Assembly (NCBI GenBank): GCA_037042915.1
Contig: CM073195.1
Location: 3,534,001-3,598,000 of the forward strand
Direction: 5' to 3'
DNA from: Auricularia sp. M13
Lineage: Eukaryota; Basidiomycota; Agaricomycetes; Auriculariales; Auriculariaceae
DNA length: 64,000 nt
In this document: piece by piece, positions 16,179-57,696 of the stretch
Layout of the letters: every line of letters begins with the position of its first letter
Numbering within the stretch: position 1 is the stretch's first letter
The notes under the pieces: generated by a model
Databases searched by the model: none
Seen by the model: only the letters and a program-made list of their open reading frames with translations
Told to the model about the DNA's origin: nothing
Translations under genes and position numbers: made by a program

Positions 16179-18304
16179 ATGGCACGCGATATCTTCGCCG
16201 AGCCCACCTATGTGCGGCGGCGAGGAAAGAACAAGACCTCGCAGCCCACGAGCTCGTCAAGCGCTGCTCGCAAACGCGATTCCACGAAGGCGACAGCGGC
16301 GGGCAAGCGCGCAGCACCTGCTCTCGACGCCGACCGTCCCGTGAAGCGGCGCAGGATCTTGGCGTCCCAGCGCGCTCCAGAGAGCGTTTATGAAGCCTAC
16401 CGGGAAGCGGTCGATTCGCGTCGACTCGCCTTCTTCCACATTGATCCCTCAACCTGGGTCGCCGAGATATGCGACCTCGACACGTTGGCTGCGCAAGGCA
16501 GTTGCGTCAACGGCTGGGCTGTCCTGCGCAGCGAAGTCGACGAAGCAGAAGCCGTGTCGTATAACTGCACCTGCCCCGACTACCTTCGCAACTCGGACGT
16601 CGACCAACGATACTGTCTTCACACTATGCTGCTTTCGTCGGACCATCGGCCGCCGTTCAAGTTGTTCACCGAGAAAGGTACGTTGACTATCTGTAGTGTC
16701 GTCGAGCCTCGCACTGACTGCTGTAGACGATCCCTCCTCCGTCTTGTTCGAACATATTCCAGCTACGTCCCAAGCACCCGCCCTTTCGTTCTTCGTCTCC
16801 TTTGTCCCAGGGCACAGCAGACAAATCGTCCAACATTGCGGGCGATCCTCGAACCAGGGTCACTGGACTTGCGGCAAGCATCGCGACAACAACTGCGTGC
16901 ACATCAAAGCCGCTCGTGCCCGCGACGCGTTGAAGTTACTGCTCGAGGAGGCGGAAGTCGATGAACACGAGGGTGACGATCTAGCTGAGAGAGCGCGACT
17001 ACGAGGTGAGCTCGCGTGTTCAATGCTTGGCCGGCCGAATGCTAATGGCCCTGCAGCCGAAGCCAAGAGTCTGAGGGATTACGATGATGAGCGGAGCGTA
17101 TCCCGCCTCAACGTCGGCCCACCGGCGTGGGCGCGCATTGCCTCAGATTCTGACGAGGATGCACCCACGTTCGCTCTCGTTGATCCTATCCCGGACTACT
17201 TCTGCCTCGGCGAAGATCCTCGTTGCCGCTGTGGGAGTGGTCCGAAGGAATCGGCGCCAGTCAAGGTCATCGACTGCATCGTATTCGGACTCTCGTCCGC
17301 GTGCGCTGCCCAAATCGAAGTCCAAGTCTGCAGCACCTGCGAGCCCCAAAGCCATCAGAATGCCGGGCCAGACCTGCGCGAGTTCGGTATCTTCAACTTC
17401 AATAATTCCCGCCTGTACACGCACGAGCTTCTCGACAAGTACACTAGCCTCATGACGCTCGCCGAGGTTCCCTTCCACGCGTTCCATATATCCTTTTGTC
17501 GAGATTATACCAAGTCGTCAATTCCCTTCGTCTGCGAGCGGACGTTCCGAACAGCATATTTCTTGTTCTCCAGACTCCAGAAGCTGGACGTTAGCTTTGT
17601 CTGCGACATCTGCGGTGAAGAACCCGAGGTCGTCGTGTGTGATGGCATGACTGCTGGCTTCAGAGCCGACTTGGTGACGGAGTCTCTGCGACCTCCTACG
17701 ACCATCGATGCGCACGCGTCATCGATACTCAGCGTGAAACCGATGCCGGGGGAGACGTCGTTGGTGAACGGCGATGTCAGAAAGCGCGCCCAACAGGCAG
17801 TTCGATGGCGCCTGAAGTTGCGGCAGGGAAAGACGCCTCTCGCTCCGGGCGACGATTCGGAGGAGTCCCTTGACGAAGATGTCGATGCTGAGGGAGCGGA
17901 GCGCGTGGCGAATAAACGACGCAACAAGAGAGATGCGGAAGATAAGGCCATGAGAAAGAAGTTGCCTGGGATTGTGGATGAACTCGCGAAGCAGAGCCGT
18001 GAATTAGCACAGATGTTTGGCATATATGTAGCGACCGATTTGAAGAGCCTCGACAGCACCGTCTTAAAGAATTACTTGCATCTATTGGAGCAGGTGGGTT
18101 CGTTTCCTTTCCAGGGTAATGTTGTCTCTAACATCGTATTTAGCTGCTGGCATATGAGTCGGTGCTACAGTTCGCAAACAAATCGGCGTGGCCCTTTCTC
18201 GACATGCTCAAGGACGGCAACGCGGAGGGCATCCTGCCGCTTCTCTCACTCGTTCCCGCCCTCGCCGTCGTCGCTCGGTATGAAGTGAAGACGACGAAAC
18301 ACAG
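16179..18304 (+). CDS. SWIM-like zinc-finger KDZ-type transposase (HMGXB3-like), 5' part
   Basis: Starts MARDIFAEPTYVRRRGKNK at 16179. After a basic region comes a SWIM-type motif, YNCTCPDYLRNSDVD then RYCLHTMLL, and a second CxnCxH-like cluster, HWTCGKHRDNNCVHIKAA. A 49-base intron (16678-16726) joins the two. Then follow FGIFNFNNSRLYTHELLDKY, FHISFCRDYTKSSIPFVCER, FVCDICGEEPEVVVCDG (the first predicted DDE acid, before MTAGF) and a basic coiled region. An intron 18094-18143 precedes LLAYESVLQFANKS and WPFLDMLKDGN. The exon ends at 18304 at a GT donor. The FNFNN/LLDKYTS/CDG pattern is shared with vertebrate HMGXB3-type proteins, which derive from KDZ-like transposases. The rest of the gene is at 34220-35036, beyond a nested element. 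Confidence 0.82.
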
Positions 18305-18330
18305 GTCAGGCTGTCCCATTTTAGTACCTG

Positions 18331-18408
18331 TTAGATGTATCCCTCTGCATGTTTGTGATGTGTCTAAAGGATGTTTTTTTTACAGGCAGCCTAGGCATGC
18401 CTGCCACC
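18331..18408 (+). repeat. left terminal inverted repeat of the nested element
   Basis: Begins TTAGATGTATCC and runs through a T-rich block GATGTTTTTTTTAC into AGGCAGCCTAGGCATGCC. It is the imperfect inverted partner of 34141-34216. Confidence 0.7.
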
Positions 18409-19240
18409 CTGTGCCTAAGAATAAATCACGCCGCAGGCGGGTTCAGGCATCGCGGGCAGCTCCAAGCAGCCTACCAGGCATCAGAGGCCACTCCAATGCA
18501 ATCCACAGGCATCACAGGCACCCCGCCCAAATGCCTGACCGTTCCGCAGGCACTCAAACTCTCCCTGCCTGCCCACCCCGCAGTCATCCCATCCTCGCCG
18601 GTTTGCCGCCAGGCATCGCTCGGGCATCAAGTCCAATTCCTATCGTCTCCGCAGGCATGCCGTCCTCTTCCGGTAGGCATCATGGGGCCGTCTCAGGCAT
18701 CCCGCTTCCAGTGCCTGCCCACCTCTCAGTCATCTAATCCTCGCCGGTTCATCTACGCAGGCATGCCGTCCTCTCCGGTAGGCATCATGGGGCCGTCCCA
18801 GGCATCCCGCTTCGAGTGCCTGCCCACCCTCAGGCATCCCATCCTCGCAGGCTTGCCGCCAGGCATCGCTCCGGCATCAAGCCTATTTCCTATCCTCTAT
18901 GGAGGCATGCCGTCCGTTCTGGTAGGCATCTCGGGGTCTCGGAATAATAGCTGGTCTGCCTGACTCTCACACAGGCGTCTCATCCCGCGCCACGCCCGCC
19001 AGGTATCACTCGGTCGACCATTCACTGACCATCCGGATCCTCTGCAGAGTTGGCAGGTCCCCTGGTTCCCGGTCGGGCATACAGTAGCATACTGATTGCC
19101 TGAACCGTGCATCACGCCTGAGTCTGTGCAGGCATCACGCCTGAGTGTGCAGGCATCACGCCCGAGTCTGCGCAGGCATCAGCCGCTGTACTTGAGCGCT
19201 TATGTCTTGCGCGCGCAGGCGTCCGGGCTTTCAATGCAGG
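18409..19240 (+). repeat. AGGCAT/CAGGCATC short-repeat array, left subterminal
   Basis: The stretch is packed with copies of CAGGCATC and its variants, mostly in plus orientation, at irregular spacing of roughly 20-60 bases (for example GCAGGCATGCCGTCCTCTCC and GCAGGCATCACGCC). No coding pattern was seen. From 19240 to 19611 the sequence is ordinary non-coding DNA running to the stop of the next gene. Confidence 0.75.
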
Positions 19241-19611
19241 CTGCGCGCATCCTTCGCACCTATGGTTTCTGAAGGCAGCCGCAGCTTCGAGTCTATCTTA
19301 TTACACTTTTTTGTGAGCGGGTAAAATCATATTCTCTATTAGAATCTCCTTGTCCCGACCAACCGCAGAGTTATCAATGACCAGAGCACAGAGCGCAAAC
19401 AGGCAATGAGGCATGTATCACTTGCACAGCGATGCTCACCGTCTAACTCCACGCACAGCCATTGTACTGCAAACATTACCCCGCATCAACATGCAACTAT
19501 TCCGGGAAGATTCTCGTTTCGGATCACAGCAGCACTTATTCGAGCGCTTCAAATGTAGACCAAGAAACCGATTACATTGAGCAATAATGGCAGAGTAATT
19601 TACTTCAGATA

Positions 19612-22600
19612 CTAGTTATAATACATGTCAGGTTGGTCATATGCTCCATCCGTTGGCAGGTAAACGTTCGGATCCACACCGTAATCGTACATGTCACTTT
19701 GAATAGCCAAGTTGATCTCGTCAGGATCGACCTCCATGCTGTCGGTGTACCCAACGGTTAGCAGCGGGTTGATGCCACGCGTTGGATCATACACGGTACC
19801 CCAGGACGCATCCTCGGGCACGACGTACGAGGTCTGCGCGGCGTGGGAGAAGACCGCATTAGGCACCTCGGGCTCAGCACCAGATGCTGCAAACATCCCC
19901 TGATCGAATTGTGCTGGCGCGGACTGCGTGGCCTCGACTGGCGGCGGCGTTGGCATCGACTGGAGAGGTACCGAGTGGGCCGGCGGCGGTGCCTGCACGA
20001 ACTGCGGCGGCGCCCATGCGGCGTCGGTAGACTGCGGCGCCCAATCAGCAGACTCCGACGGCGGCACCGCGGTGTGAGCAAGCGCGGGCGGCGGCGGCGG
20101 TACGAATTGAGCAGGCGCGGCGCGAGCGGGCGCGGCGTGAGGGGCCTCGGAGAGCGGCGGCTGCGTCTGCGCGAATCGCGGCTGTGTCTGCGCGAATTGT
20201 GCGACCGCGGGCGGTGCAAATTGTGTGACCGCGGGCGGTGCGAATTGTGATGGCTCGGCGGCCTCGGGCGTCTGCGCGAATCGCGGCTGCGTCTGCGCGA
20301 ATTGCGCGACCGCGGGCGGTGCGAATTGTGATTGCTCGGTGGCCTCGGGCGTCTGCGTCTGCGTCTGCGCGAATCGCGGCTGCGCGAAGTGAGCGGCCGC
20401 GGGCGGCGGTGGCGGCGGTGCGTATTGTGGCGGCCCGGCGTGGGCGACCTGGGCTGGCGGCGGCTGCGTCTGCGCGAATCGCGCAACCGTGGCGTGGCGG
20501 CGGTGCAGATTGCGGGTGGGGAGGCGGCGGCGCAGCCGCCGCGCAGCGCTGCTACGTGACCAAGATGCACTAGTCACCAAGGCCCCCGCAAGACTGCTGT
20601 AGGTAGATATTTGTGTCGAATTGGTCGGTGGTGACGGCGATACGATAGGATGATGAACATGAGTGTCTTCTTTTGCAACCGATGGATTGTATGCAAAGAT
20701 CTTCTCGCCGAGCTGCTGGCTCGAAGATCCTGCGGAGGATTGAGGTGCGTGATCATGCTCGGCGCTGGGCACCGACAGATCCGGTGATCCCACCGCATCG
20801 TCATACTACAGATACGTAAGCACTGAGACACCGAGCACGAACCAACCCTCGTACCATGTTATCACCCATAACTTCGTCCATAGATGCGTAATCAGGTCCG
20901 GCGTTGTCGTAGATCTACGCCACATTAGTAACAACACAAGTCACGGCTGAAGCTGACTCACCTCCACTATCTGAACATCAAGTACTGCATCGGTGGCGGC
21001 GCCGCCACCGACGGGATTAAGCCTCGAGCCGTTGGCATGCGTGTTGGATGTCTTGAGTGAAGAAGTCGACGCCACGGGCGCGGGCTGCGGCTTGACGACA
21101 GGAGCTGCTTTTGGAGGTGCTGTGGCTTGTTGACCTGCTACCGTTTCGGCGCTGTCGCCCTCCGTCTTCTTTGTCTTCTTTGTCTGGACCTGGGTGCGAC
21201 TGCTGACGTCGCCGACAGTCCGCAAGACCTTCCCCTGATCGTCGATCCAGAGCGCGACCTGATTCCACAGCGCTGTGTCGCGTTTCTCGTTGCGAAGTGC
21301 AAGATCCTCTGTCGATTATGTCAGCGGCGTTCGCGTGACTTCGCACGGACGGACCTGCAGGGATGGGCTCGAGCCGGAGTCCAGCTTTGACGGCAGGTTC
21401 AGCACCGTCTGCGATTGCGCCGTCTTCGCCACTCTCGTGTTTCCTGAGTGCCTCATACAGCGCCGAAAGAAGCGCGCCCAACTGAAGAGCAGGGATCTTC
21501 GCTCTGCACCTGGTCCAGCGTCACGACGCCAACAGGCCATCCGCAGAGCCTCAGAGAGTGCTTGAGTAACTCTGCGTCGAACGACGCCCAGTTGATGCAC
21601 TTGCGCGGAGAGACGAGGGCTGCGAAAAGCATTAATGTTTGAATGGTCAATACGCATCAGAACGCACATTGGAAAGATAAAAGCGCGTTGTTGCAGGCCT
21701 TGCGTTTCGTGCCCTGGCCCTTGATTTTGGCGAGGCCTTTGACCGAATGGTCTAACATAGCCTTCTCCGCGAGCTTTCGAGCACTGGCGTCTTTCAATCA
21801 ACAACGTCAAGCAGATAAACCAAACAACTCACCCGCAGAATGTCACGAACTCGGAGAGCAGTTCGCGGAAGTTGACGTCCATGTCCTTGAGGAACTTGTA
21901 CGCCATGTCGTTGTTGGCGAACATGCCATTCGCCGCGGATCCTATCACGTCGCCCGTCTTGAGGTTGACCACGAAGCCGAACACGGCGATCTCGTAGTTC
22001 GTGTAGTACGGACGAGTCTGCACATCCATCAGTCGCTGCGCAACGCAATTTGGCAGACTCACGGTGTTTTCAAGTTCATCAAGGAGTTTCTTGATGATCT
22101 TGAATAACGAACCGTCCGAGATTATGTCGTTCGCGACCTCCTTTTCGTACTTCTCACACCACGCCACGAGTTTCTCCGTCCACTTCTTCAGCTGTTCCTT
22201 CGACTTCGAATTGACTTTGTCCCAGTACGCCTTCGACCGCCGCTTGCGATACTCGCTAATCGTTTCTATGGGGCAGTTGTAAGTGAGATGCACAGATTCC
22301 AAGTTTGCGAACAACGCACCTCCGACCTTCCGAGGTACCCGCAAAGAAAACTTGCGGCTGTACATATTCCACGTGGACTTCTCCCGCTTCTGCTTCAGTA
22401 AGATGCGGGCCAGCTCCCAGAGATAAGCCGGAGACTTGCCCCAGGCTTTTGCCCGCTGCATGACCCACTCCTCCACCGCCTTGAAATAGGCGCGAAATTC
22501 GTCGGCATGGGCGTTGCTCAACGGACCGGGCACGAACGAGGTCGCGTCGACGTCCTCTGCCTCCTCGTCCGGCACGCCAAACATACTGGTCGGTTGCTCC

Positions 22601-24067
22601 TCGTCGTCGTCGTCGTCGTCGTCGTCAGCGTCTTCGACCGTCGCCTTGTACTTGCCGTTGAGCTTTCCCGTAGTTGTAGAATGCGAACTGCGAGCAGGCT
22701 CTGTGGAAGGACCCGCCTTGGGGGCGTCGTCATCCTCCGTATCGGTGGTCGGCAGCGAGGGACCTTCCCGACGCCCCTTGGGCTGCATCTCCTCCTCCGT
22801 CAAGCCAACCTGCAGCACAGTCAGCATATAGCAGTACTTGTGACGCCTAAGAAATTACGCACGACTTTACCGAACGCCTTCTTGAGCTGGCGCAGCTGGC
22901 CGTTTTGCCAGTCGCGCGGTAATTCCTGGCCGAGCGACGCCGCGGACTGTTTCGCCTTAGCGACGATGGCCGAGGCTGCGTCACGAAGCGCGTCCATCTG
23001 GGCCAAGCCGTCGTTGAAGACGTCGCCAGTTGGAATCACCTCTGGCACTGGGACGCGCTACACGACAATGAGCAATGTAAATGAAATGCGAAGAGCATGA
23101 GTCTGCGTACCTCTACCTCGATAACATCGTCGTCGTTCAATCGACGACGCTTGTTCCCCACCAGTACCGCGCCGCCCCGTGTCTTGCCACCTCTTGGGAT
23201 GGGCGCCGCATCGCGACCGACGCGCCCGCCGCGCCCACCGCGAGCCGCAGGCGGCGCAAACGACAATCCAGTGTCCTGCGCGTCAACCTCCATCGCTCCC
23301 GCGTCGTTGTCGTTGTCAGAAGCACTCGCAGCGTCCTCGGCGCGTCTTCGTCGTCGTCGACGGCCTTGGCCTTGGCCTTGCCTTTGCGATTGGCCTTGGC
23401 TTTGCAGGCGCCTTTGGCTTCGCCGGCGCTTTGAGCTTCGCCGGCGCCTTTGGCTTCGCCGGCGCCTTGGGCTTCGCCGGCGCCTTGGGCTTCGCCGGCG
23501 CCTTGGGCTTTTTGGTGACCTATTCAGCCATGTCAGCATCACGCAAACGTTGAATGAGGCAGAGCGTATACCTTGATGCCGTCGGCCTCCCCGTTCGAAC
23601 GCCGCCATCGCTGTCCTCGCTGTCCGCGGCGCCCTCGTCCTCAGACTCTGGCTTGCCGTTGCGTTTGCCCTTCGATGCCTTCTTTGCCCAGGCTGCGCAT
23701 CCGCGGCGCGACTCTCGGACTCCTAACGCAACAATTAGAAGATACCACCCATGGGCGGTAGGACATACGGCGAGACCGGCGTCATCATCCGAGTCGGTTA
23801 TTGTCGCTTTGATTTTATTGCCTGGAAGTCGGTGAGCGATGCGGTGGTAAAATCATGCAAAGCACGGCGCACCCTCGTTTTCCTCCGCTTTGCAGCGGTG
23901 ACCTCATTGGCGGGCAGCGCGTCGCCGGGCAGACTGTCGTCGGCCGGATCGTCCACTTGGAGCGTGGGAGGGGCATTGTCGTCGGCGTCTCCGTCAGCAT
24001 CGGACGGCGGGCGAACAGCGGGCGGGACAGCCAACGCAAGCCTCCGCGCCTGACTACGGGTCGTCAT
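19612..24067 (-). CDS. unrecognised multi-exon cargo protein
   Basis: The start is MTTRSQARRLALAVPPA at 24067, with a TATAAA box on the minus strand at 24160-24165. The N-terminal part is acidic and basic low complexity, including an 18-base tandem repeat (about 23395-23515). Then come RGGKTRGGAVLVGNKRRRLN, PEVIPTGDVFNDGLAQMDAL and QLRQLKKAFGKVV. The best conserved-looking part is FRAYFKAVEEWVMQRAKAWG, LWELARILLKQKREKSTWNM, YSRKFSLRVPRKVGGALFAN, WTEKLVAWCEKYEKEVAND and, after a small exon, INWASFDAELLKHSLRLCGW then PVGVVTLDQV. The long last exons are rich in FAQTQPRFAQT and APPAVAQFA repeats and end at 19612. I think this is one gene because exons stay ordered without a convincing start in between, but it could be two. 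The family is one I associate loosely with expanded agaricomycete genes; function unknown. Confidence 0.6.
23395..23515 (-). repeat. 18-bp tandem repeat within cargo gene
   Basis: About six copies of an 18-base unit built on GGCGCCTTGGGCTTCGCC. On the minus strand it reads as PKAPAK or SPRRRR repeats depending on frame; the SPRRRR frame continues into the better-looking downstream coding sequence. Confidence 0.75.
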
Positions 24068-24069
24068 AG

Positions 24070-24760
24070 AGGGTGGAAGGCGAGTAGGCAGGCGAAGGGA
24101 GTAGCAGAAGTCTGGCGGCGTGCTCAGGCAGCGGACAGGCAGCGCAGGCACAGGCCGCCTTTATAGCCGCAGGCAGCCAGCCGGGATTTACGCAGCTGCC
24201 TGCATATCCTAGCGGCGTCATCGAGCGCGATGAGTGGGCTGCCTGCGATGCCTGCTGTTTGAACACTGAATATTGTTTAAGCTGCCTGCTGATGCGCTCT
24301 CGACGTCGCTTACGAGTCGGGTTGCTAGATGACGGTGTTAGTGATCACGATAATAATACAGTCAAGCTGCGCACCTCAGATAAACGCGTGAATACGCGGC
24401 CAGGGTGTGAACGAATACCTGAATTCGTCAGTCAGAAATTACGAAGGAGCTCGGTCGGCGTTTGGTCGTCAACGTACGGCAAACACTGCAGCTTGCGATC
24501 TGGCAGGTTTGTATTCACGGGCTATGCTGCCTGTGATGCCTGCGAGCTGCCTGTGATGCCTGCGACCGTGGCAGGCATCACAGGCAGCTTGGGCCGAGCG
24601 TTGAGAACGATAAGGCGGAGCTTCGGCACTTTGCGCTGCCTGCCTCTCTACCTGCCAGGCAGCAGCCGCAATTCACTGCGCCTGCCTGCGCGGGCCCTGC
24701 ATCACCGTAGGCACCTGCCTAGGCAGGTCCTAGGCAGGTGCCTACTCATCTAACTGCTTT
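24070..24760. repeat. AGGCAT/TGCCTG short-repeat region and divergent promoter
   Basis: This region between the divergent genes at 24067 (minus) and 24912 (plus) holds many CTGCCTG, GATGCCTGC and AGGCAGC copies in both orientations (dense at 24090-24260 and 24525-24745), including the palindromic CTAGGCAGGTCCTAGGCAG. It also contains the TATAAA box of the minus-strand gene at 24160-24165. From 24760 to 24911 nothing further is seen. Confidence 0.65.
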
Positions 24761-24911
24761 CCGATTTAATTATGCTCTCGACTCGATCTCCGTGTCGCCC
24801 GCTCGCACTTCCTACCTCGACGCCTTACGCTGGACAGCCTGCCGTCTGCTACTCGGTGCGCATATAGCGCGTTCTTGCTCTCTGTTGCGGCCGTGCTGAC
24901 TACCGCCTAGA

Positions 24912-25740
24912 ATGTCCGGACTGAATCAGCCTGCGTGAGTCGCGCTCCGTGTTCTGCGTGCGCCGGACTGAATCTCTGTCATGATTCAGGAATGACGGCG
25001 AAGGCGGCCAAGCTCCTGCAGACGACGAACAGACTATGTGGCGAAATTGGGATCCAACGCTGGGGCCCTGGCCCGGTTCAACAACTCCTGCTGCCGTCTA
25101 TGACGGCGGCCACTACTACCCCGCATTCACCCTCGAACACTTCGGCGCCGGTTATTACAGCGACGACAGCGACGACAGCGACGACTACGTCCTCGCTGCT
25201 TGCAACATGCAACATCTCCATTTAGACGACCCGCCGGAGCAAGACATGTGGCGTACGGACTATCTGGAGTTCGTCATCGCGCAACGCGCATGCGCTGCTC
25301 GTCGCCAGGCCGCCGGACTTGCCCCTACACCATGCAGCAGACAGTCACCGTGCAACGACTGCATCTTCCACCCTGGCGCGACAGCTACCTCGGTCCATTG
25401 GCAATGCATGGACGACGCGCGCCTGAACGCGGAACTTGAGGGATATCTTCTGGAGCGGTCGCCCAACGAGCAGGATTGGGTGCCGCCTTCACCTGCCTCT
25501 GAGCGTCGCCGCCTGCTGCCCCCTCGTCTACACTTCTCGGCCGGAGATTCTGCTGGCATACGTCCCGCCTACGACTCGCAGCACAGCAATCACGCGTCGC
25601 CGTCGTCCTCCGTGAGGTCGGACCCGCCATCGCCGTCGGACAAGTCAGCCACCTCTTTCCCAAAGGCACCCTCCGCTGCGGACCGCCCAGTTTTTGGGCC
25701 GCCGAGACCGCCGCCCGAGTACGTGGATCTGTCCGATTAA
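24912..25740 (+). CDS. unrecognised cargo protein, two exons
   Basis: Exon 1 (24912-24934) reads MSGLNQPA; a 55-base GT-AG intron (24935-24989) joins to NDGEGGQAPADDEQTMWRNW. The product is about 250 residues: an acidic, tyrosine-rich N-terminus with a DDSDDSDD run, a short cysteine-bearing middle (PCSRQSPCNDCIFHPGA), a conserved-looking YLEFVIAQRACAARRQAAGL, and a disordered Ser/Pro tail ending PPEYVDLSD. No domain is recognised. Its stop lies 117 bases from the stop of the convergent gene at 25857. Confidence 0.6.
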
Positions 25741-25856
25741 ATGCGTCGGGCTTGACGATTGACAAGGTAAGTTGCCTTTCTGCATTGTATCGGGTTGCTC
25801 AGACTCGCTTCAGGATCGCCCCGCCCCCAATGCTCGACAATCGCGTGTACCATGTT

Positions 25857-26575
25857 CTACTTACATTGCCAATACAACGCGCGTTGTTCGTAACATCTCC
25901 GTAGAAAGTCTCCTCCACCATTGAACAACGTAATTATTTCTTCGAGACCGTGCGCAATATGACCGGCTTGAGCAGCGAGATCAGATAGCCGTCGATATTC
26001 GTCGCTCTCAACGTCGAGGCTGCGGAGCTGGGCTTCTTCCACGCCGTCTCGCGCCACTTCCGCCACGGTGGACGCCAACTGCTTGCTGAACTCGATCGAC
26101 TGCAGCAATTTCTTCGCTGAGCGCCGGGACTGCTTCGCTTCAATGAGTCCCTCCGTAAATTCCGCCCACTTCATCGCTTCTGGCGTCAGATCTCTCCACG
26201 CTCCCAAGTCAAAGCGAAGTGCCGTTGCGAGCGAATTGAGAGGCGTTGCGTCCTTTATGAGATATAGTTTGCCTATGACCTGAGTAATATGAATAATGTG
26301 CAACGAACGTCTGGGCACTGACAACTTACGAGGACTGTTGAAGGGAGCAGAGGCTTTGGCTCTTCCACTTCTAACGAGGATGTGGTGTCTTCCCTCTTAT
26401 TGCGCCAGCGAGAAAGAGCTCGTTGACGTTCCTGTGTTATGTTGCTAGTCGCCGGTTAATTGCAAGGCCATGACGGGACACGATAGTGAGCCTACCGCCT
26501 GTAATATTCGCGTCGAGTACGTTTTCGAGCCTCGCGCCGTTCCTCTTCTGTTGCATATTTAGGTGGGCGGCCCAT
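25857..26575 (-). CDS. small basic/coiled-coil cargo protein (MGRPPKY type)
   Basis: Three exons. Exon 1 from 26575 reads MGRPPKYATEEERREARKRT then RREYYR; a GT-AG intron ending GACTAG joins in frame to NITQERQRALSRWRNKRED. A second intron joins STVL to VIGKLYLIKDATPLN. The rest is helical (FTEGLIEAKQSRRSAKKLLQ; GHIAHGLEEIITLFNGGGDF) and ends at 25857. The N-terminus has an AT-hook-like GRP and a dense basic region, so DNA or chromatin contact is plausible. I recall similar short MGRP-Y-T-EE-starting proteins in other agaricomycete genomes, without known function. Upstream, at 26576-27074, I see only the divergent promoter shared with the KDZ gene. Confidence 0.65.
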
Positions 26576-27074
26576 CTGGAGCAGACCGCGTCACCCAGCC
26601 CGAACTTCGTGTCTTTTACACTTGAGAGGTTGGAAGAGAAGGAAGGTTGGCAAGGAGGATGAGGGCATTTTCCGACGAAGCTCAGACGCGACAATCTAAC
26701 CGCTACCGCGAGTGCGCGGCGCGTCCTGCTCTTTCCCTCGCGCATATATTTTGATAGATAGTCAAAATTATTCGTGCTAAGGGTCTGAGACACCCTGAAT
26801 CTCGCTGGAAACGCGCGCAAAAGCCAGTAGGACGAGCTTCTGGACAACAATCTTCTGGACAAAAATGAGCTTCTGGACAGAAACTAATCGGGCATCTAGT
26901 GTCGCTGGCATTTGCGGCGCGAAATCTTGTACATGTATACGAGTTGTCTTTCATGTTGCTTTGAAAATCTAGTTGAACTTATTTTATTTGGCGTCGTGGT
27001 CTTTATGACATGCTGTTGCATACGAGGAACGCGACGCGTGAGTGAACTCCGACACTTGCACTCTTCGACCTGCT
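26576..27074. other. divergent intergenic region
   Basis: About 500 bases between the starts at 26575 (minus) and 27075 (plus). It contains an AT-rich GCATATATTTTGATAG near 26743 and an A/T-rich stretch at 26960-26990, which may be promoter elements, and no gene. Confidence 0.4.
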
Positions 27075-30000
27075 ATGGCCACCAACTTCCGCGCCGGAGC
27101 ACGCAAGCGCCAGCGCAAGAACTTTGACGCAGCTGCGCGCGTGTCGGACGATTCGGACGACGCAGGCCCTGGCCATGGCGCGGGTTCCACGCGTGCCGTC
27201 CCAACTGCTGACACGAGCCGATTCCAACTTATACCTGCCGCCAAGATGCCTAAGCGCAAAAGACGGCCAGGAGAGCTCAAGCTCCCCAAGGTTCTTCGAG
27301 AAAGGGGCTTCATGAAGTTCCCTGGCGGGCAGGAATACAGCCAGCAACCGAACCTACCGCCTTCCTCCGTACCTGGTCGAACGGCGACGCAGGCTTTGTT
27401 CGCCGCCGTAGGAAGGTCTCACAACCCCTTGGACGCCTTTGACCAGCAAACACTCGATTATTTGATGCCAAACAACGGCGAGCAGCTCGAGGGGCCGCTG
27501 TTCGACCTCGCCAACCAGCCTATGCTCTCAAGACACCATCGTCGTCGCATCAAGCAACACATCAACTGGTCCGAAGCCGTCAACCCCACCGTACACTCGG
27601 TTTACCTGGCCCGCAAATATGGCGCACTCGAGGTTCCTGCGGGAGAATCGACTTGCGCGTGCAGCCATCGTCGAACGCTCCAAGTTATGCTCGTTGATTG
27701 GCATGGTGCGCGAACCTTTTTCGCGCTCCATGCGACCAATAACTGGACCCCTCAGATCTTCGAACAACGTTGCTGGTCATTTGTGACTGCTCACCGGCCC
27801 TGCTTCAGCTTCTCCGACAGGGATATTTCCCTTGCGCGCCCAAGTGCCCCTCCATTGCATTCAGCTTGGATATACTGGAATTTATCTCTCTGCACTCTGT
27901 ACACGTGTCTCCAAATGCCACAGCATGGTCTGACACGCTGGAAGCGTACTGGGCGCGTCGAGGGCGCATGATTCGGTATAAGGTACGCCACTCGCGACGC
28001 CGAGAATTAAAGCTCACTGGGCACAGGGCAACCTGCGCAAGAGACTGGGGACGGCTTTAACATGGTACCAAGTGCTCGATAACGCGCGGAACACGCAGTT
28101 AGCATGCGAATTGACGGTATTTCGTTTGCATATGAAGTCAGAAGTATTCTAACGGCGCTCGCAGATGCGGCTGCTTCATTCGAGACCGTCCACGTTGCAG
28201 ACGACAAGGACGTTCAAGAACCCGCGCGGAAACGCAGGTCCATCCTTTAAACGCGCACGCGTGGAGGAGGAGGAGGAGGCGAAGACACGGCCAATGCCGG
28301 CCGCGCCGCTCCTCCCACCAGCTCTGCGCGCGGACGCTCGTCATCCGGCCGCTGCAGGAGCACACCCAGAGCTGGAAAGTCGGGCATCGAACTGTCCCGA
28401 GGATGAACAACGACGCTCTTATCCAAGTCGCTCGCTGCGCGCCAAGTGCCAGCTTTGCTTTGGCGGTGCACGACCGATGCTCGAGCATACCAAGTGAGTT
28501 CCGCGTCGGCGCATGGATCTATGACAGTATACTCATCCTAATTGCGAAGGGCACACGTTCTCGTCTGCCTCGACGCAAATTTCTCGCAGAAACGACGCAA
28601 GTGCGCCGACACGGACCAGCCGCTGGACTTTCTACCCGGCCGTTTTTTATCGAAGGCCGACGTGGATTGGATGGAACAAGAGCTAGCAGCCAAGCGCAAG
28701 CGCCCTCCCAAGCGGCGCAAGCCAGCATCGGACGATGAAGTCGCGGATGATGTTCTTGATCAATGTGAACAATCGTTCACCGCGGCGCAAGAGGGAGTCA
28801 CCAAGGCATCTAAGAACTATTACGCCGATACAGGGCTCATGGCGCTTCTTTGTCGCCATGACCGCGTGCTTTGGGTCGTCAATATGGACACGCCGGGCGA
28901 ACGCCAGCACTTCGCGTTGGCCTTGATTCGCAAGCTTGGCCAAGAATTGCCGTCCGATTGGATTATCGGTTTATTGTATGCGACATTGCCTGCCAATTGG
29001 CGCGCAGCATCGTGAAGGTAAGTTGCTCGGTTTCATAGGGGCTGATTGGCTGACGTACCCTAGTTCGGTCTGCTCCCTGAGCTGGAGGATCGCCTCGTAT
29101 TCGCTGTCTCTGTTTTCCACGCATATGGACATCAATGGCCTTGCCAGGTCGTCTTCCACCCGCGTAAACGCAACGGCTTTGGCCTGACCGATGGCGAAGG
29201 GTGCGAGCGCTTCTGGAGCGCGATTCGCCATCTCATATCGGGTTTTGCGCGTGTCGGGGGTATGTGCCCCCTTTCATCTTCTTGAATATTATTCTTACAC
29301 GTCTTGCAGTTCTTCCGCCGTTTGTTTGTACTTGACCGCCAGATCTCTGCCATGGACGCCAAGACTCTTTGGCAGCTTGGCTTTTGGATACGGCGGCGCT
29401 ACCTGGACGCTCAGAAGCGTCTACGTGAGGCGGAGGATCAGCTTCGCAACAACAGCGTGCCCGAGGACGAGCTGTCCAAAGAATGGCAAGCGCAGGTCAA
29501 GGCGCAGCTCATCAAACATCCCAGTAAGGACTCGTCTTTTCTCCGCGCGACTAGCGCTCTGACTTTACCAACAGAACAGAACGCGCGCGCTGCGGATAAG
29601 CCCATCGACGAAATCCTGCTCGCGATGGGCCAGCTGGACGATCTCAACCAGCTAATCGCCGAAGCTCGCAGCGAGTTACGCCAGGCGCACAAGCTATCCG
29701 CCGCTGAAACTCAAGAAATCATGTCGCGTCTCGAGTCGGCCAGGCAGCATAGCGACGCCACCAAAGCTCGCATCGCCGCTCTGAAGGCATCGCTCGGAAC
29801 AGAGCAAACGCGGAGGTTGGAGACCATGCGCGACGATGCTTACCTGATTGCGCGAGTCAACGCGCGCGCGATGCGAAGCAACATCCGGAAGGCGCTCATG
29901 GCCCACAAGTTCGATCGACAGAAGCTCGAGCGTGCTTACAGGCACCAGGTTCTCCGTAAGTGCACTGGTAATCTCATGTCGCACAACTGACTTATCATAG

Positions 30001-31887
30001 AAGCCAAGGAACACTCGCAGACCAAAGACTTGATTCACCGTCGAGAGCGTACTATTACCGGTCAGGTCAAGAAGTTCAACGATCTCGTAAAGCAGATGGC
30101 ATTGCTCATCCGTCAAGGCAAGAAGCCGCGCGGACGAATCCGCGCCCCCCGCACGTTGGACACGAAGAAACTCTTCAAGCTCGACGTGGACGATGATATT
30201 TGGCAGGAGGACCCTGGACTCGGCCCACAAGATGAAGACGGTCTGCCGCGCTGGCAGATCGACAAGGACGTTCAGCTCGGGATCGTCTCGCTATTGCAGA
30301 AGCGGCGCTGTATCGAAGAGCTCGAGCGCGTCAGGGCCGAGGTCTCCTCACTCGGGACTTGGTGGCTCGAGGAGATGAAGATCTTGGAACTTGTCTGCGC
30401 AGACGATTCTGGTGAGATGCCCTACCAATTCCGCTGTCCTTTCGCTCATTACAGCAGTTCCTGCCGTGCTTCGGCGCGCTGTTCAACATCGCCTACAATA
30501 CCACCTTCGCCTGCGTAGCGAGTGGATCCCGGACCTTGTTCATTGCGGCCTGGGCGGATTTTTCGAGAGCTGCGCACCGCCTGAGGTGCTCGATTATTCC
30601 TCAGACACCGTTGTTGAGGTTTCGGTCGACGGAGATGCGGATTCCGATGACGCGTCCGATGCCCACACAAACATCGAAGACGAGGATGTGGAGGTCGCGG
30701 ATCTCCTGGACGACCTCGTTGCGGCGGCCGACGACGATCTCGTTGCGGCGGCCGACGACGAGGCTAATGCCAGAGGCGACGACATCACCATTGCCAGTTC
30801 CCCGGAGCCGGTATGTCGCCCACGTGCATGCATAGACAATTTGCTTACAGGGCACACAGATAGATGCAGCGTTCCCAGTTGCTGAGGAAAAGCCAAAGGC
30901 CGCGACCCCGCTCTTCCTCCCCGACAGCGACGATGACATCGTCGCTCCGCAATGTCAAGAGCAGCCCCGGGTTGCCATACCGATAATTATATCCTCTGAC
31001 AGCGACGACAGCGAGAACGTCCCGTCGCGAGCTCGGCGAGCACGCAAGGTCCCGGTGCAAGAGCGGCGCATCTATCGCGCAGGCCATTTCTCATGCCACG
31101 AAGAGGATTATGTTCGACTTTGCAATCCAAAGGCGTGGCTCAGCGGAGACGGCCTGGCCGTCTTCACGATGGCGAAGCTCCTCGCGGTCAACGCGCAGCG
31201 AGTCAGCATTGTGCACTCGCGCATGTTGTATGATGTTGAATGCTTCCTGAAAGCCCGCGGATGGGGACGCGGTAGCGCAGCGCATCAACAAGGTCCAGAT
31301 CCAAACGGCCTTTGAACAGGTGCGCCGCTGCCATTGCGTATTGCAAGGACTGTATGCTAATGACTTGAAGTTGGTTCGCCCAGATAAGGCGCTCAAATGG
31401 CTCGTGGTGGCCCACGTGCGCAGCCCTATGCAGCACTGGACCTTGATTGAAATTCGCTGGACCGACAAGACGGTGCTTCTACGACAGTTACTCCCAATCG
31501 AAAGATTATGCCGTGGACCTTCAGCAAAAGGCCATGATCCTGCTGGCCCTATCTGCCGAGTATTTCAAGATCGTGTTGCCGCCATTCCGTTGGATCGGCG
31601 AACAGGTTCGTCATCTCGTGGTCTCGGTAATCCGTGCTAATCTGATCGTTTGGACCAGCGGGCTCTTCGACAGACTAATGGATACGATTGTGGCCCGTTC
31701 GTGGCGGCGGACGACGGTGAGCCTGATGACGACCAACATGCCGAGTACGAAAACGCAAAGGGATATGCAGGACTGGCGTGCCGAGATGGCTGCTGTCGTG
31801 CAACGGCAAGTCGACAACGTTGTGGCACAGGCATCAGTCGTTGTGCCGCAAGGAACGGACATGGAAGTTGTGGAAATTAGTGACTAG
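27075..31887 (+). CDS. KDZ-type (CxC1) transposase joined to an Ulp1-like SUMO protease domain; frame breaks
   Basis: The likely transposase of the nested element. Starts MATNFRAGARKRQRKNFD. Domains in order: RHHRRRIKQHINWSEAVNPT; the cysteine cluster with CDCSPALLQLLRQGYFPCAP and SPNATAWSDTLEAYW; SLRAKCQLCFGG; first acid in LVCLDANFSQKRRK; DTGLMALLCRHDRVLWVVNM; second acid in VCDIACQLARS; FHAYGHQWPCQ; catalytic glutamate in GLTDGEGCERFWS; the helical tail with LFKLDVDDDIWQ. After an acidic linker a C48 peptidase-like domain follows: NPKAWLSGDGLAVFTMAKLL, MQHWTLIEIRW (His), YDSYSQ (Asp), and QTNGYDCGPFVAADD (Cys). Many introns of 50 bases. Frame breaks occur between GLLY and DIACQ (near 28978) and before YDSYSQ (near 31480) without visible introns, so this copy looks inactive. 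The end is uncertain by some tens of bases. Confidence 0.83.
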
Positions 31888-32171
31888 TAATCTAATAACA
31901 CGACACCCTAGAGCAGGCGTTCCTTACGCCACTGCGAAGGACTCGGGCTGAGTGCTGACTGTTCGTGTTTGGCCCGCGACATGCTGATCCTGATTGTTTA
32001 GGCATCACGCGCCCAGTTCCATAGGCATCAGGCAGGCAGGGGTAGGCATCACGCGCAAAATGCAGGCATCAGACAGGCAGGCCGCAGGCATCTCAGGCAG
32101 GCATCTCACTGGCTTCACACAGGCAAGTCGATGCTTTTCTCATCTTAAACGCGCCTCCGGCTTACATGACT
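31888..32171. repeat. AGGCATC short-repeat array
   Basis: Between the KDZ-Ulp1 gene and the convergent small gene lie at least eight AGGCATC or AGGCAGG copies, nearly all in plus orientation (about 32000-32125). Confidence 0.65.
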
Positions 32172-32659
32172 TCAGACATCGCAGGAAGGTGAGCTGGGAG
32201 GTGTGAGGGCCCTGAAGCGATCTAGCACCGAGCCCCGCACGCGCTCCGTGTACGCGATGCCTCGTAGACCGTCCCTGAATGTAGTCGACCAGCCTTTCGT
32301 CATCGCACACGAAAGCCAGCTAGATTTCATCGTTAACAGGTGCACATCGCTTCCGTCAGGATATGGCATACCTCCTCGAACAAGACAACGCGAACATAGA
32401 GGGCAATGGCGTCCTCCCGCATCTTCCTCTCGCGCTCGGCGTCGGTCGTTGTATCCCTGAAGATCGTAAGTCAATAGGCACATCGACATGGGCGTGACAT
32501 TGCGCACTCGTAGAAGATGCCGCTGCTCTCTGGGAGCTCGTGGCCGACACGATTCAGCGTCAGCGCGAGACCCAAGTGCTCGAAGCCATCGTCGCGCTCG
32601 TATGAGACGATCGTCACACGGAGGTAGTCAACGCCGGCTGGAGGAGTGAGATGGAGCAT
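32172..32659 (-). CDS. unrecognised small cargo protein
   Basis: Starts MLHLTPPAGVDYLRVTIVSY at 32659, with a TATA-like TATAAAG on the minus strand at 32702-32708. It continues ERDDGFEHLGLALTLNRVGH and ELPESSGIFY. An intron joins to DTTTDAERERKMREDAIALY then VRVVLFEE; the last exon probably contains WSTTFRDGLRGIAYTERVRG and ends near 32172, but the final splice does not give that frame cleanly. No family is recognised; the first 50 residues look like a beta-rich fold. Confidence 0.45.
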
Positions 32660-32916
32660 GGTCGGTGAGAGGGAGAGGGAGAGTGGGGATACGTGCTTGG
32701 GCTTTATAGCCACCTCAGAATGTTTGTCTTTGTGTCCCGAGATGCTCCGGAGTCGTTCAATCAAGAAATAAGAGTGTGATTTGAAATAAACGGTCTATTC
32801 TGCAAACGTAACACGACGGAGAAATGAGAATGGCCGAGAAGCAAGATAGCGAGTGTCTACAGCCTGCCGATTGCGGTGGTGAGGACTCGATGCTGGATGG
32901 GTGTAGTAAAATACAC

Positions 32917-33286
32917 TTACACACTGCCAAGTTCCACTTCGTAGGCCAAGAGCGCCCTGCGTAGCTTGATGCACTGCAACGTATGCGTGCAGCGCGCGAC
33001 CTCGTTGTCGAACTCGTCGAGAGCCTCGGTGATCTCGCTGGACAGCGCATGCAACGCGGCGTGGTGGCGCTGAAGCCTCGCGATGTCGGCTTGCAGCTTG
33101 TTGCTTTTCGCGAGTAGTTCGTCGACAACGGCATCGAAGCCGAACAGCGCAAGCAGGCGAGTGTTGAGACTGGCGAATGCAGCCGCTGTGCGCGTTTGCA
33201 AGGCGCGGTTGATGGCGGAGCGGCGCAGCGTACTTGCGCTCAGGATTGGAGAAGACGGGTGCCAGGAGGAGCTGAGAAGACGACAT
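32917..33286 (-). CDS. unrecognised small coiled-coil cargo protein, possible GC-AG intron
   Basis: Starts MSSSQLLLAPVFSNPE at 33286. The frame then only continues if a 52-base intron with a GC donor (GCAAGT) and AG acceptor is removed, giving PAAAFASLNTRLLALFGFDA. The rest is helical: VVDELLAKSNKLQADIARLQ and ALDEFDNEVARCTHTLQCIK, ending YEVELGSV. A TATA-like sequence lies near 33330. The protein is about 110 residues, probably a homo-oligomeric coiled coil. The GC-AG intron is an inference from the reading frame. The 257 bases between this gene and the start at 32659 contain nothing else. Confidence 0.5.
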
Positions 33287-33339
33287 TGTGGGTGGGAATG
33301 GTCTGCGAAGCGTCGACGGACCGGGCTGCTTATCTATTT

Positions 33340-34140
33340 AACTGTTGGGCACGACGATCTGCCTGAGATGCCTGAGTTCAAGTCATGTCTGCCTGCGGCG
33401 TGCCTAAACGTACTCCGGCGTACGACAATCCGTCATACAGAGTTGCCTGTGATGCCTATGTGCGGGATAGGCATGCCTATGAGTTGCCTATTGATAGCAA
33501 CAGCTTAATCTAAATAAATAACGTGCCTGCAATGAGTGGGAGGCAGGCTTCGGTCTGATTGCCAAATGTGCCTGCGTGATGCTTGGCTGCCTGTGCGATG
33601 CCTGAGCATCAGTCAATAAGTTAGGCAAACACCATCCGACTGCCTTGGCTGCCTGCGGGAAGCTTACAGTTGCCTGCGTGATGCCTGCGTTGCCTTAGGC
33701 ATGCGTGCATGATGCCTGCGATGCCTTTAGGCACGCCGGCGCGATGCCTGTGATTCCGGAGTGATGCCTGCGCCTTCCTTGCGCTGTGCCTGCGCATCCG
33801 GGATCTGACGGAAAACATGCCTAGGCTGCTGAGAATGCGACGTATGCCTCTTGTGGCCTGCGTCCTGCATTGCCCAAGCCTGTACGCGGTTTGTCTGGCA
33901 TCTCAGAACGCCATAGCAGCGCTGTGCTGTACCGTACGGATGCGTAAGGGGGGATACAATGTCATGGACGGTCTAAGAGATGCACAGTGTCATGCTTGCT
34001 CGAAGCGTAGGCTGCCGCCTGCTCAGCGTAGGCAGCTGCCTGCTCGGAGCGTAGGCAGCATCCGAACTGTGTGCACAGCTAATATTGATTGATGGCTCAC
34101 ATCAGCCGTCTCATCATGCTTCTCGAGCAATCCCTAAATA
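33340..34140. repeat. ATGCCT/TGCCTGCG short-repeat array, right subterminal
   Basis: Copies of GATGCCTGCG, TTGCCT and AGGCATG are dense at 33360-33850, mostly in minus orientation, the opposite of the left array at 18.4-19.2 kb. A second small group, CTGCCTGCTCGGAGCGTAGG type, is near 34010-34060. No gene is seen. Confidence 0.7.
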
Positions 34141-34216
34141 CCGCAGGCATTCCTAGGCATGCCTGGTACAAAAACATCATTTAGGTCGATCTCTTGATAG
34201 GGAGGATTACATCTAA
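34141..34216 (-). repeat. right terminal inverted repeat of the nested element
   Basis: Ends in GGATTACATCTAA at 34216. Its reverse complement begins TTAGATGTAATCC and contains GATGTTTTTGTACC and AGGCATGCCTAGG, matching the left end block by block with small gaps. Confidence 0.7.
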
Positions 34217-34219
34217 GAG

Positions 34220-35036
34220 CTCGGATTTGGGGCAGCCTGTGGTGACGAAACAAATCAGCTCTACACTTCAAGGCGTCGCGGGATTCGTTCTTGACCGATC
34301 GCAAACGGTCTTCGCGTCGCTTTCGCACCACGACCCGGATGAACACCTGATCGAAGAGCATGAGGATTGGCGCGAGGTTCGTTTTTATAATGATCCCGGA
34401 CAGTGACAAAGTTAACACGCATTTCAGACTGGCACCTTCTACGGACGGCCCCGCATTCGAAACAGATCGGTGTACCCCAACATTCCCGGAGACGGCGCAA
34501 CCGATCGCGCGACGGTCACGGCATCGGGCGGGAAGATGGCGTGCTCCAAGTTTTATCAGACCTATGGCAAGAAAGGCTTAACGGGTGGCTTAATGGCCAT
34601 CTGGTGCCCGCACAGTGTCTGCTACGGGTTTCACTGCATCCCGAAAGGCGAGGGGCGGAACGACGTCTTTTCCGCGCTGTACACTCACTGGGTCCGGCCA
34701 CCCAAAGTCGTCGTATACGACTTCGCTTGCGCGCTGTCCCCGTACTGCATGATTCGGGAACCCATCTACTTCGGCGACACTCTTTTTGTCATCGACGGCT
34801 TCCATGAGCACGACCACACGCGGTGCTCGCCTGCGTGTTTCCTCAGCGCGTACACAGAATGGTGTGAAAAGTATCGCAACATCAACTCCAGCGCGGGCGA
34901 ATGTGGGAACTCCAGTCTGCTCAAGATCCGCAAGTCGCTCAGTTACATGGGCCAACGGCACGGCATCGTTCTCGTGTACACGTTCCTTGCCATTTGGAAC
35001 CGCAAGCGGCAGAAATCGCGAGAGGCAGCTGTTTAA
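34220..35036 (+). CDS. SWIM/HMGXB3-like KDZ-type transposase, 3' part
   Basis: Two exons (34220-34376 and 34428-35036, GT-AG intron between) encode SDLGQPVVTKQISSTLQG, DEHLIEEHEDWRE and then TGTFYGRPRIRNRSVYPNI. The core has CSKFYQTYGKKGLTGGLMAI, WCPHSVCYGFHCIP, the second acid in VVYDFACALSPYC, FHEHDHTRCSPACFL and the catalytic glutamate in NSSAGECGNSSLLKIRKS. This is the C-terminal half of the same family as 16179-18304. The phase fits: the donor at 18304 leaves AG, and the acceptor at 34219 begins with C, giving one serine codon and an open frame. Thus the gene may still be read across a 15.9 kb intron if splicing tolerates the insertion; more likely it is silenced. Confidence 0.82.
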
Positions 35037-54262: not shown

Positions 54263-54495
54263 TCTTTTATCCTTTTGGCTTGAGCGTTTTGAAACTCTAC
54301 TGTACCCTAATCAGACAGTGTGTCGTCTCTTCGGCGCGTTTACAGGAAATTTTAGCTAATAGCGGGGAGTAGAGACTTGGCAGAAAATGTTCCTTCTTTT
54401 AATTTGACGTCCCAGTCCAAAGGGAACCGCTGACATGCGGCACATCCCGCATCTTGCCAACTTGGACACGAAGACCTACAGCTCCCGCACGGCCT

Positions 54496-56277: not shown

Positions 56278-56637
56278 CGGAGAGGATTATCACCGTCTCG
56301 ATATGCATTCGGACGAGGAGTAAAAGTATTCGATGTATCACGCTTGAACGCAGCACTGTCGACCTACATATCTTCTCAAATAAACCATTCTACGAGGAAC
56401 TACCGCATATTTAATATGCAGGCTCGTTCAACTCAATTTTATCGATGCTTCCACTGCCTTTCTTATTGTCCCAACGATTTACGGTGCTTGCAGTTAGCTA
56501 CACATCGTGTTGAGCACGCTGTGATCAACTGTGATGATTTGACGGACAGACCACGTGAATATTTTCGGCCTGGCGCACGTCACGGCGCCGGGTGCATCTC
56601 GAACCTCTTCCCTGTTCCCTTCTCAACGTGGCCGACG
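56278..56637. other. intergenic, nothing recognised
   Basis: Spacer between the F-box-like gene and the next gene, same strand. An open frame upstream of 56638 has no coding-like composition, so I place the next start at 56638. Confidence 0.4.
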
Positions 56638-57696
56638 ATGGACTCGTTCTCGTGGTCTGACGCCCTGCGCGCCTGCCTGCCATGCATGGCAAGGCCGGCC
56701 ATCGAGCTCGACGACGAGCAGCAGCAGCCAGCGTCCAGGGCGCCGCGGCCGAGCCTCAGCGCACGCGAAGAACTCGAGCGGCTGCTGGAGACGGACGACG
56801 AGGCGGAGACGCTCAGCTTGCACTCGAACATGGGTGGCCAGCGTCGGCCGAAGAAGGGCAAGGCGAGGCGCGGCGGCAGGGACATCTCGCTGTTCGGCTA
56901 CAGCCTCTTCGGCCGCCGCACCGGCGCCGTCGCCCTGCCCGACAGCGACGACGAAGGCGGTCCGCGGATCCCGCAGCCCCGCCGGAGCTCCAGCACGCTC
57001 GACTCGGACGCGGCGCCCATCGACGACTCGGCCATCGCCAACCTGTCCTGGGACGCCGCGCGCGAGGCCGAGGAGCGCGAGCGCGCTGAGCGCCGCGCCG
57101 CCCGCCGCCACCGCAAGGAAATGAAGCGCGCGGCCGCTGCGCTCGCCGCCGGCGTCGGCGAGGACGAGTTCGAGGGCTTCCCGGGCTCGGGCTCGTACCT
57201 GCCGGCCGCGCACTCGCAGTCGCAAGAGTTCGGCGCGTTCGTCCAGGCGCCGACGCCGCCGCCGTCCGAGCCGCCGCAGCACCAGCACCAGCACGACCAG
57301 GTGCCGTCCAACGACGACGACGAGGTCGACTTTGGCGCCGAGCTGTACACGCGCAAGACGGGCTCGTCCGTGCGCTCCGGCTCCGACACCCGCTCCTCGG
57401 GCTCCAGCGGCGGCCGCCGCAAGAAGAGCGCCAAGAGCTCGACGAGCGCGAGCTCGCGGAGCAGGGACGAGCTGCGCAGCCCGCCGCCCGCGCTGTCCTT
57501 CTCGGACGTCGCGGCCGTCGCGAGCAACTCGCCGTCGCCGCATCTCCAGCAAACCTTCACGCATCCCGGTATGACTCCCTCGCCGAAAACCGCCGCATTC
57601 CCGAGCACAGGCTTCGGAAGGCCCTCTGGCGGGGCGAGCGGGCTGAGCGCTGCCAGCTTCAGCGCTGCACTCGGCCGCTCTGGCAACGACGCTTGA
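56638..57696 (+). CDS. unrecognised, largely disordered protein
   Basis: Starts MDSFSWSDALRACLPCMARP at 56638 and is a single exon of 352 codons. The N-terminal CLPC could be lipid-modified, tying the protein to a membrane, but that is a guess. Short conserved-looking parts are SAREELERLLETDDEAETLS and RDISLFGYSLFGRRTG. A charged helix (AAREAEERERAERRAARRHR), an HQHQH run and Ser-rich tails make up the rest. The high GC content leaves long open frames on the other strand that are not genes. No function can be named. Confidence 0.7.
   Translation: MDSFSWSDALRACLPCMARPAIELDDEQQQPASRAPRPSLSAREELERLLETDDEAETLSLHSNMGGQRRPKKGKARRGGRDISLFGYSLFGRRTGAVALPDSDDEGGPRIPQPRRSSSTLDSDAAPIDDSAIANLSWDAAREAEERERAERRAARRHRKEMKRAAAALAAGVGEDEFEGFPGSGSYLPAAHSQSQEFGAFVQAPTPPPSEPPQHQHQHDQVPSNDDDEVDFGAELYTRKTGSSVRSGSDTRSSGSSGGRRKKSAKSSTSASSRSRDELRSPPPALSFSDVAAVASNSPSPHLQQTFTHPGMTPSPKTAAFPSTGFGRPSGGASGLSAASFSAALGRSGNDA

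Follow-up and report, generated by a model that had tools for sequence, protein, structure and literature searches.

A 15.9-kb KDZ transposon inserted in an exon of another KDZ-type transposase gene in Auricularia sp. M13, with recurrent neighbouring genes and arrays of a short motif

KDZ transposons abound in mushroom-forming fungi. Among those described so far, KDZ1 of Cryptococcus neoformans is about 11 kb long, has 241-bp terminal repeats and generates 8-bp duplications, while the KDZ2 and KDZ3 elements of Cryptococcus, which measure about 9.2 and 10 kb, have terminal repeats of 139 and 169 bp, generate duplications of 4–8 bp and are found in exons and introns; some of the KDZ elements have been caught moving in this genus (PMC12810828, available to us in part, like the other articles cited here). 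Duplications of 8 bp have also been described in the case of Zisupton and a Dileera element, and of 7 bp in that of Kyakuja (PMC12730594). KDZ elements with lengths of up to 30.3 kb (Ectocarpus) and 31.7 kb (Chlamydomonas) have been described, and in fungi such elements are frequently accompanied by accessory genes (PMC12477816). The present analysis deals with a KDZ element of the basidiomycete Auricularia sp. M13, which is located in a stretch of 64,000 nucleotides (assembly GCA_037042915.1, contig CM073195.1, positions 3,534,001 to 3,598,000 of the forward strand) referred to below as the window, whose numbering is used throughout; the genome examined consists of 52 Mb in 14 contigs, and its numerous KDZ, CxC, and Plavaka genes are in keeping with a basidiomycete. 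We consider it quite probable that a complete, fairly recent KDZ cut-and-paste transposon has split an exon of its host gene, that three of the genes it carries (A, C, and E) belong to its machinery, and that the arrays of the motif CAGGCA(T) present in it are putative protein-binding sites.

The element is 15,943 bp long (18302–34244, plus strand) and stands between two copies of the 8-bp target duplication ACGAAACA (18294–18301 and 34245–34252). Its edges are defined by empty sites and by the identical ends of a second full copy and of seven short copies. A 331-bp query spanning the left edge of the insert gave 13 matches in the genome, including the window; 11 of the 12 others break at 18301, and in these copies of the host sequence 18301 is joined to 34244/34245 with a single copy of the target, i.e., these are empty sites in the same genome. 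The halves of the host family, rather than lying always far apart, are joined in these 11 copies; the twelfth (L019) stops before the site. The initial annotation proposed that a KDZ element was nested in another KDZ-type transposase gene, which is supported by these empty sites and by the KDZ transposase carried by the insert itself; the edges it placed at 18331 and 34216 are replaced by 18302 and 34244, which lie 29 and 28 bp farther out. The imperfect inverted repeats it reported at the borders (TTAGATGTA and others) are real and correspond to the inner part of the terminal inverted repeats. Alignment of the two ends places the latter at 18302–18410 (plus strand) and 34136–34244 (minus strand), with approximate inner edges: they are imperfect, measure about 100 bp, and match at 13 of the 17 positions at the very tip, the element beginning with CAGGTCAGGCTGTCCC on the left and finishing with GGGGCAGCCTGTGGTG on the right.

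The second full copy, which is almost identical, is located on contig C5, where it interrupts a modelled exon of a Plavaka transposase gene (Pfam, 6.4e-60), and the seven short copies, each 2.4 kb in length, carry the same tips as the two full ones. An exact scan of the genome for the left tip recovered these nine copies and nothing else, and a similar scan for the right tip recovered the nine copies plus a fragment showing the right tip only (L046), which was left out of the copy count. All nine copies have the same end positions, rather than ends lying elsewhere, and each has its own perfect 8-bp duplication (8/8), a precise mode of insertion which is that expected of a KDZ cut-and-paste transposase. 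Since the base preceding the left duplication differs from the last base of the element in five of the nine copies, the length of the duplication is 8 and not 9 bp. Three of the nine insertion sites are in exon models of other transposases, including that of the short copy L043 in a DDE_1 transposase (1.9e-24), and no model put the site in an exon in the other six cases. The short copies are 97.8–99.8% alike, and no gene model was found in the two that were scanned; their tips, measuring about 160 and 210 bp, are 80–81% alike to the full element. The short copy L041 adjoins (minus strand with respect to the element) a gene model resembling the CxC4-KDZ protein of the host. The two full copies differ inside the element by 39 substitutions and 33 insertions or deletions, one of 99 bp and the others of 1–2 bp. 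These near-equal numbers may hint at uncorrected read errors, and the nesting might on these grounds be attributed to an assembly error, which seems extremely improbable, as misassembly does not yield site-specific perfect 8-bp duplications and exact tips at nine sites.

The gene models used here were obtained with a simple gene finder written for this analysis and trained on the open reading frames (ORFs) of the window, with introns of 42–130 bp allowed; weak antisense models are among those it produces, and where a frame is broken, it may join the two sides by means of a spurious intron. When the flanks are joined, the host gene comprises a 5′ part matching CxC4 (16179–18301, plus strand; exon models 16179–16677, 16727–17005, 17057–18093, and 18144–18301) and a 3′ part with a weak KDZ match (34253–35036, plus strand; exon models 34253–34376 and 34428–35036). 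Scanned against Pfam at a threshold of E 0.05, the joined protein matches CxC4 (4.1e-36) and, below the KDZ cut-off, KDZ (0.001). The flanks had been described as the two halves of a SWIM-KDZ gene: the two halves were confirmed, and no Pfam SWIM domain was detected at the above threshold. A single exon of the joined model runs across the insertion site, and the frame is open across the target (...VKTTKQISSTLQ... or a close variant) in 9 of the 11 empty copies, the aligned stretch having no open frame in the other two (L011 and L012). Since the empty copies keep an open frame across the site, the target is an exon and not an intron: the insertion occurred in a coding exon of the gene of a multicopy KDZ-type transposon.

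The initial annotation located the insertion in an intron, based on a donor at 18304 and an acceptor at 34219 with matching phases. The phases do match, but the GT and AG concerned are inside the element; their agreement is explained by the fact that removing the GT..AG stretch leaves exactly 36 nt in frame. One might then suppose that the insertion now acts as an intron, the splice sites in its tips removing 18305–34219, so that the host transposase survives with 12 extra codons. The GT at 18305, the AG at 34218–34219, and the absence of any stop in the 36 nt left behind are compatible with this idea, the same letters are present in the tips of the short copies displayed, and a large CACTA transposon is reportedly spliced from a soybean gene (PMC4219821). 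We nevertheless take it to be very unlikely, given that the target was an exon before the insertion, that our own simple scores are low for the acceptor (GAG, −2.1), which is poor, and no more than modest for the donor (0.5), and that an insert of 15.9 kb with genes of its own is far above the range of introns allowed in the models. This length also far exceeds that of normal fungal introns. A phase-matched GT..AG pair inside the tips of a transposon can therefore make an insertion in an exon resemble an intron.

The genes of the element are arranged in the order A (minus), C (plus), E (minus), CxC1-KDZ-Ulp1 (plus), and D (minus). The higher gene count suggested by the scattered ORFs was reduced to five or six genes by the models and the homology data. 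The six genes announced by the initial annotation are possible but not proven, as gene A is a single 14-exon model, KDZ-Ulp1 is a single multi-exon model, and D may be one gene or two. The transposase gene (27075–31887, plus strand), encoding a protein with an N-terminal CxC1 and a C-terminal Ulp1-like part, is modelled in pieces in the window, where its frame is interrupted, whereas in the C5 copy it is open as a model of 1,441 amino acids. The KDZ domain (PF18758) was detected at 3e-60 over positions 3–217 of 217 in the C5 copy and at 2.5e-25 in one exon of the window copy; beside it, one and the same stretch of the C5 copy matches both CxC1 (1.5e-10) and CxC2 (6.1e-7). Since both the KDZ domain and the CxC cluster are present, the element belongs to the KDZ superfamily. 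The Ulp1-like part matches Peptidase_C48 (PF02902, 2.8e-8) in the C5 copy, with the catalytic His/Asp/Cys motifs HW, FYDS, and YDCG, and that of a relative on contig C6 matches Peptidase_C48 (3.7e-7) and SENP5 (2e-5). The idea that it might lack the catalytic cysteine was rejected: when an intron missed by the model is taken into account, the C5 copy reads TNGYDCGPF. It can be guessed from the family that this part might process or remove SUMO-like tags.

Gene A (19612–24067, minus strand) is a 14-exon model encoding 1,245 amino acids, which has homologues at 23 places; no Pfam match was found in the first 935 residues, which were those scanned, and the mean predicted local distance difference test score of the predicted fold of its core, 53, is too low to be used. 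Gene C (24912–25740, plus strand) encodes a small cysteine-rich protein, the start and 3′ exons of which are uncertain; its conserved part is within the ORF 24985–25737 and includes a YLEF...ACxxxxxCSRxxPCNxC-like stretch. Gene E (25857–26575, minus strand; exact exons uncertain) begins with MGRPPKY, which resembles the MGRPPKF of its C6 counterpart and presumably recalls an AT-hook or a basic region, although no family match supports this. Gene D (32183–33286, minus strand) is covered by a single small model in the window, which, like that of C, is among the weaker ones, and by two models in the C5 copy, and the genome search yielded no homologues of it beyond these two full copies. No Pfam match to TET/JBP was found in 10 ORFs and the models of KDZ-Ulp1, part of A, and D, although a distant TET-like protein could be missed in this way, or in the A, C, E, and Ulp1 models of the C6 relative.

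The element resembles KDZ1, KDZ2, and KDZ3 of Cryptococcus in having a KDZ and CxC1 transposase, terminal inverted repeats, a large size, and an insertion in an exon, and shares the 8-bp duplication with KDZ1; it differs from them in that its repeats are imperfect and only about 100 bp long, and in the part of the source available to us, genes A, C, and E, the Ulp1 part, and the arrays are not mentioned in connection with these three elements (PMC12810828). With Zisupton and Dileera it has in common a KDZ-type transposase and 8-bp duplications, as well as terminal inverted repeats in the case of Zisupton; the families presented in that source, as far as the part at hand goes, were chosen for their TET/JBP gene, for which none of the ORFs and models scanned in the present element gave a Pfam match (PMC12730594). 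Kyakuja, also a KDZ element of Agaricomycotina with CA..TG tips, generates duplications of 7 bp and lacks terminal inverted repeats according to the same portion of that source (PMC12730594), and the 8-bp duplication and imperfect terminal inverted repeats of the present element set it apart from this family. The giant KDZ elements of Ectocarpus and Chlamydomonas are comparable in terms of their size (from 10 kb to more than 30 kb), additional genes, and nesting; they differ in being algal, and neither the gene set nor the arrays described here are mentioned in the part of the article consulted (PMC12477816). The size of the element had been thought to be unusual, which is at odds with the published elements of 30.3 and 31.7 kb (PMC12477816). 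Since KDZ elements in print already show such features, we regard the size, the extra genes, and the nesting as ordinary.

The homologues of the element's proteins were counted in six-frame searches of the genome, the results of which are lower bounds including both full copies. The 149 exon-level KDZ matches were merged by hand into 95 places. Homologues of A, C, E, and the Ulp1 part occur at a minimum of 23, 14, 21, and 25 places, respectively, and a KDZ match lies no more than 16 kb away at 22, 13, 20, and 24 of these places, one place of each having no KDZ nearby; the portion of the genome situated at such a distance from a KDZ match amounts to about 6% at most. The side and the strand are the same as in the window in 18 (A), 13 (C), 19 (E), and 24 (Ulp1) cases. 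Apart from the two full copies, KDZ is accompanied by A or E at 20 loci, 11 of which have the four parts together in the same order and on the same strands, the protein identity outside the two full copies ranging from 23% to 50%. The fact that the same neighbours accompany KDZ-Ulp1 at many diverged loci suggests that A, C, and E are components of the machinery of the element rather than chance cargo. If, on the contrary, A, C, E, and D were passenger genes acquired by chance and playing no role in movement, it would be understandable that A, C, and E match no Pfam family above a cut-off, and D may indeed be a passenger, since it is confined to the two full copies; as an explanation for all four genes this is unlikely, in view of the diverged loci at which A, C, and E adjoin KDZ and of the 11 loci keeping the order and strand of the four parts.

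The element contains 73 copies of the motif CAGGCA (36 on one strand and 37 on the other), and 67 of these copies are outside the gene models, i.e., in 25% of its length. Arrays were found to exist at the left end (24 copies, 18383–19405), between A and C (17 copies, 24125–24688), between KDZ-Ulp1 and D (8 copies, 32029–32125), and at the right end (18 copies, 33360–34165), with no copy of the motif in the gaps between C and E and between E and KDZ; the motif density in the remainder of the window is 0.94 per kb. There are 24 copies within the first 1,250 bp of the element and 26 within its last 2,250 bp, as against an average of 1.8 (maximum, 7) for the former stretch and of 2.3 (maximum, 8) for the latter in sets of 500 random sequences with the same dinucleotide make-up. 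In the three short copies counted, there are 44–45 copies each. The diverged C6 relative has arrays in places matching those of the window element, with a different motif: the palindrome AGGCATGCCT occurs three times in the window element and not at all in the C6 relative, whereas TGGCATGCCA is absent from the former and occurs 19 times in the latter, and the ratio of AGGCAT to TGGCAT is 53:14 in the one and 10:51 in the other. The most enriched 7-mer of the C6 relative, CATGCCA (TGGCATG), is present at 41 positions (6 to the left of A, 8 in the A/C gap, 26 to the right of Ulp1, and 1 in the gene models), most of which are paired because the word is part of a palindrome. The arrays might also be the remnants of spreading simple repeats or reflect base composition without having any role in binding, and some tandem repeats including the CAGGCA word do occur in them; this origin is rather doubtful, since the counts at the two ends are well above the random maxima, both strands are concerned, and the diverged relative has its arrays in matching places with the outer base changed.

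The tips of other relatives were also compared. The left tips on contigs C4 and C11, which lie beside two relatives and resemble each other, are identical to that of the window element in their outermost 16 bp, while at two aligned sites about 83–102 bp inwards, the window element has AGGCA-GCCT and AGGCATGCCT and those on C4 and C11 have TGGCATGCCA and TGGCGCGCCA. In a pattern scan, right tips with one mismatch were detected on the expected side of the relatives on C1, C6, C7, and C9. In the C9 relative, the distance from the right tip to the end of gene A is about 18 kb, based on the C6 gene model carried over; its left tip was not found in the 19.8 kb fetched, and the genome pattern scan gave 10 matches at 2 mismatches, none of them near this relative, as compared with 6 in the reversed control. 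The candidates for the ends of the C6 and C9 relatives obtained by repeat search were of chance quality only. The stretches C6:261275–281300 and C9:73547–93300 (L047–L050) are 97.6% alike throughout the length fetched, which corresponds either to an element of more than 19.7 kb or to a duplicated segment. In C11:1713834–1743275, the left tip is about 20 kb past gene A and a second KDZ match (1736109) lies between them; these are perhaps nested elements.

Several observations weigh against the reading given at the outset. The interiors of the short copies match the full element in short pieces only and do not derive from it over long stretches. The KDZ-Ulp1 frame in the window copy and that of gene A in the C5 copy are interrupted, by either decay or errors in the assembly or the reads. 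Gene A is reversed at four loci and E at one, and four of the KDZ-Ulp1 places are without any match to A, C, or E over a distance of 16 kb. As some loci are near-identical, such as those on C6 and C9, the loci are not all independent. Lastly, the link between motif and family was drawn from one type of relative and two further tips.

As regards the surroundings, the right end of the host element is near 39490, and its left end was sought but not found. When its tandem-like stretch at 35229–35481 is compared with other copies (e.g., L009, L010, L011, and L017), it aligns at several places that overlap, as if the repeat number varied among copies. Another KDZ-domain gene (1529–1879 and 1919–2137, minus strand; 122 and 54 bits) points to an additional KDZ element close to where the window begins. 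At 54403–63426 (plus strand), there are long ORFs with F-box-like matches, which are above the cut-off in the case of ORF 54403–56274 (2.4e-6) and below it in that of ORFs 59604–61538 and 61618–63423 (0.0016 and 0.0093); ORF 56278–57693 has no match.

In the En/Spm (CACTA) transposon, which has CACTA tips and 3-bp duplications, a second protein of the element goes together with numerous short motifs close to the two ends. The present element, with its tips CAGGTCAGG and its 8-bp duplications, is not a CACTA element; the transposases are unrelated, and the likeness is one of working principle, involving a second protein and end motifs. By this analogy, the KDZ domain would cut and join the DNA, and a protein of the element, for which E, C, and the CxC1 part are candidates, would bind the CAGGCA(T) arrays at both ends and in the A/C gap; the bound protein might pair the two ends and, at the A/C gap, tune the element's own transcription. 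The short copies would be mobilised in trans, since they have retained the tips and the arrays. We tentatively suggest, as a possibility going beyond the present locus, that a large fungal KDZ-Ulp1 lineage may work as a fixed four-gene machine, one helper of which would read near-palindromic sites, [A/T]GGCATGCC[T/A], arrayed at both ends and in the A/C gap. The families might have swapped the outer base pair of these sites, so that each machine would act preferentially on its own DNA and on the gene-poor short copies belonging to it; the outermost 16 bp (CAGGTCAGGCTGTCCC), by contrast, would have been kept constant across families for the cutting enzyme.

The fixed set of helpers and the motif arrays, in a layout resembling that of En/Spm, may be new: no description of either was met with in the literature searched, the coverage of which was partial and did not include Iyer et al. 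(2014). The recognition by KDZ elements of their own ends is little described in the literature, as far as the parts consulted go. If the above picture is true, the conserved helpers and the matching arrays would provide a handle on the recognition of the ends, the spread of the short copies, and the persistently large size of these elements.

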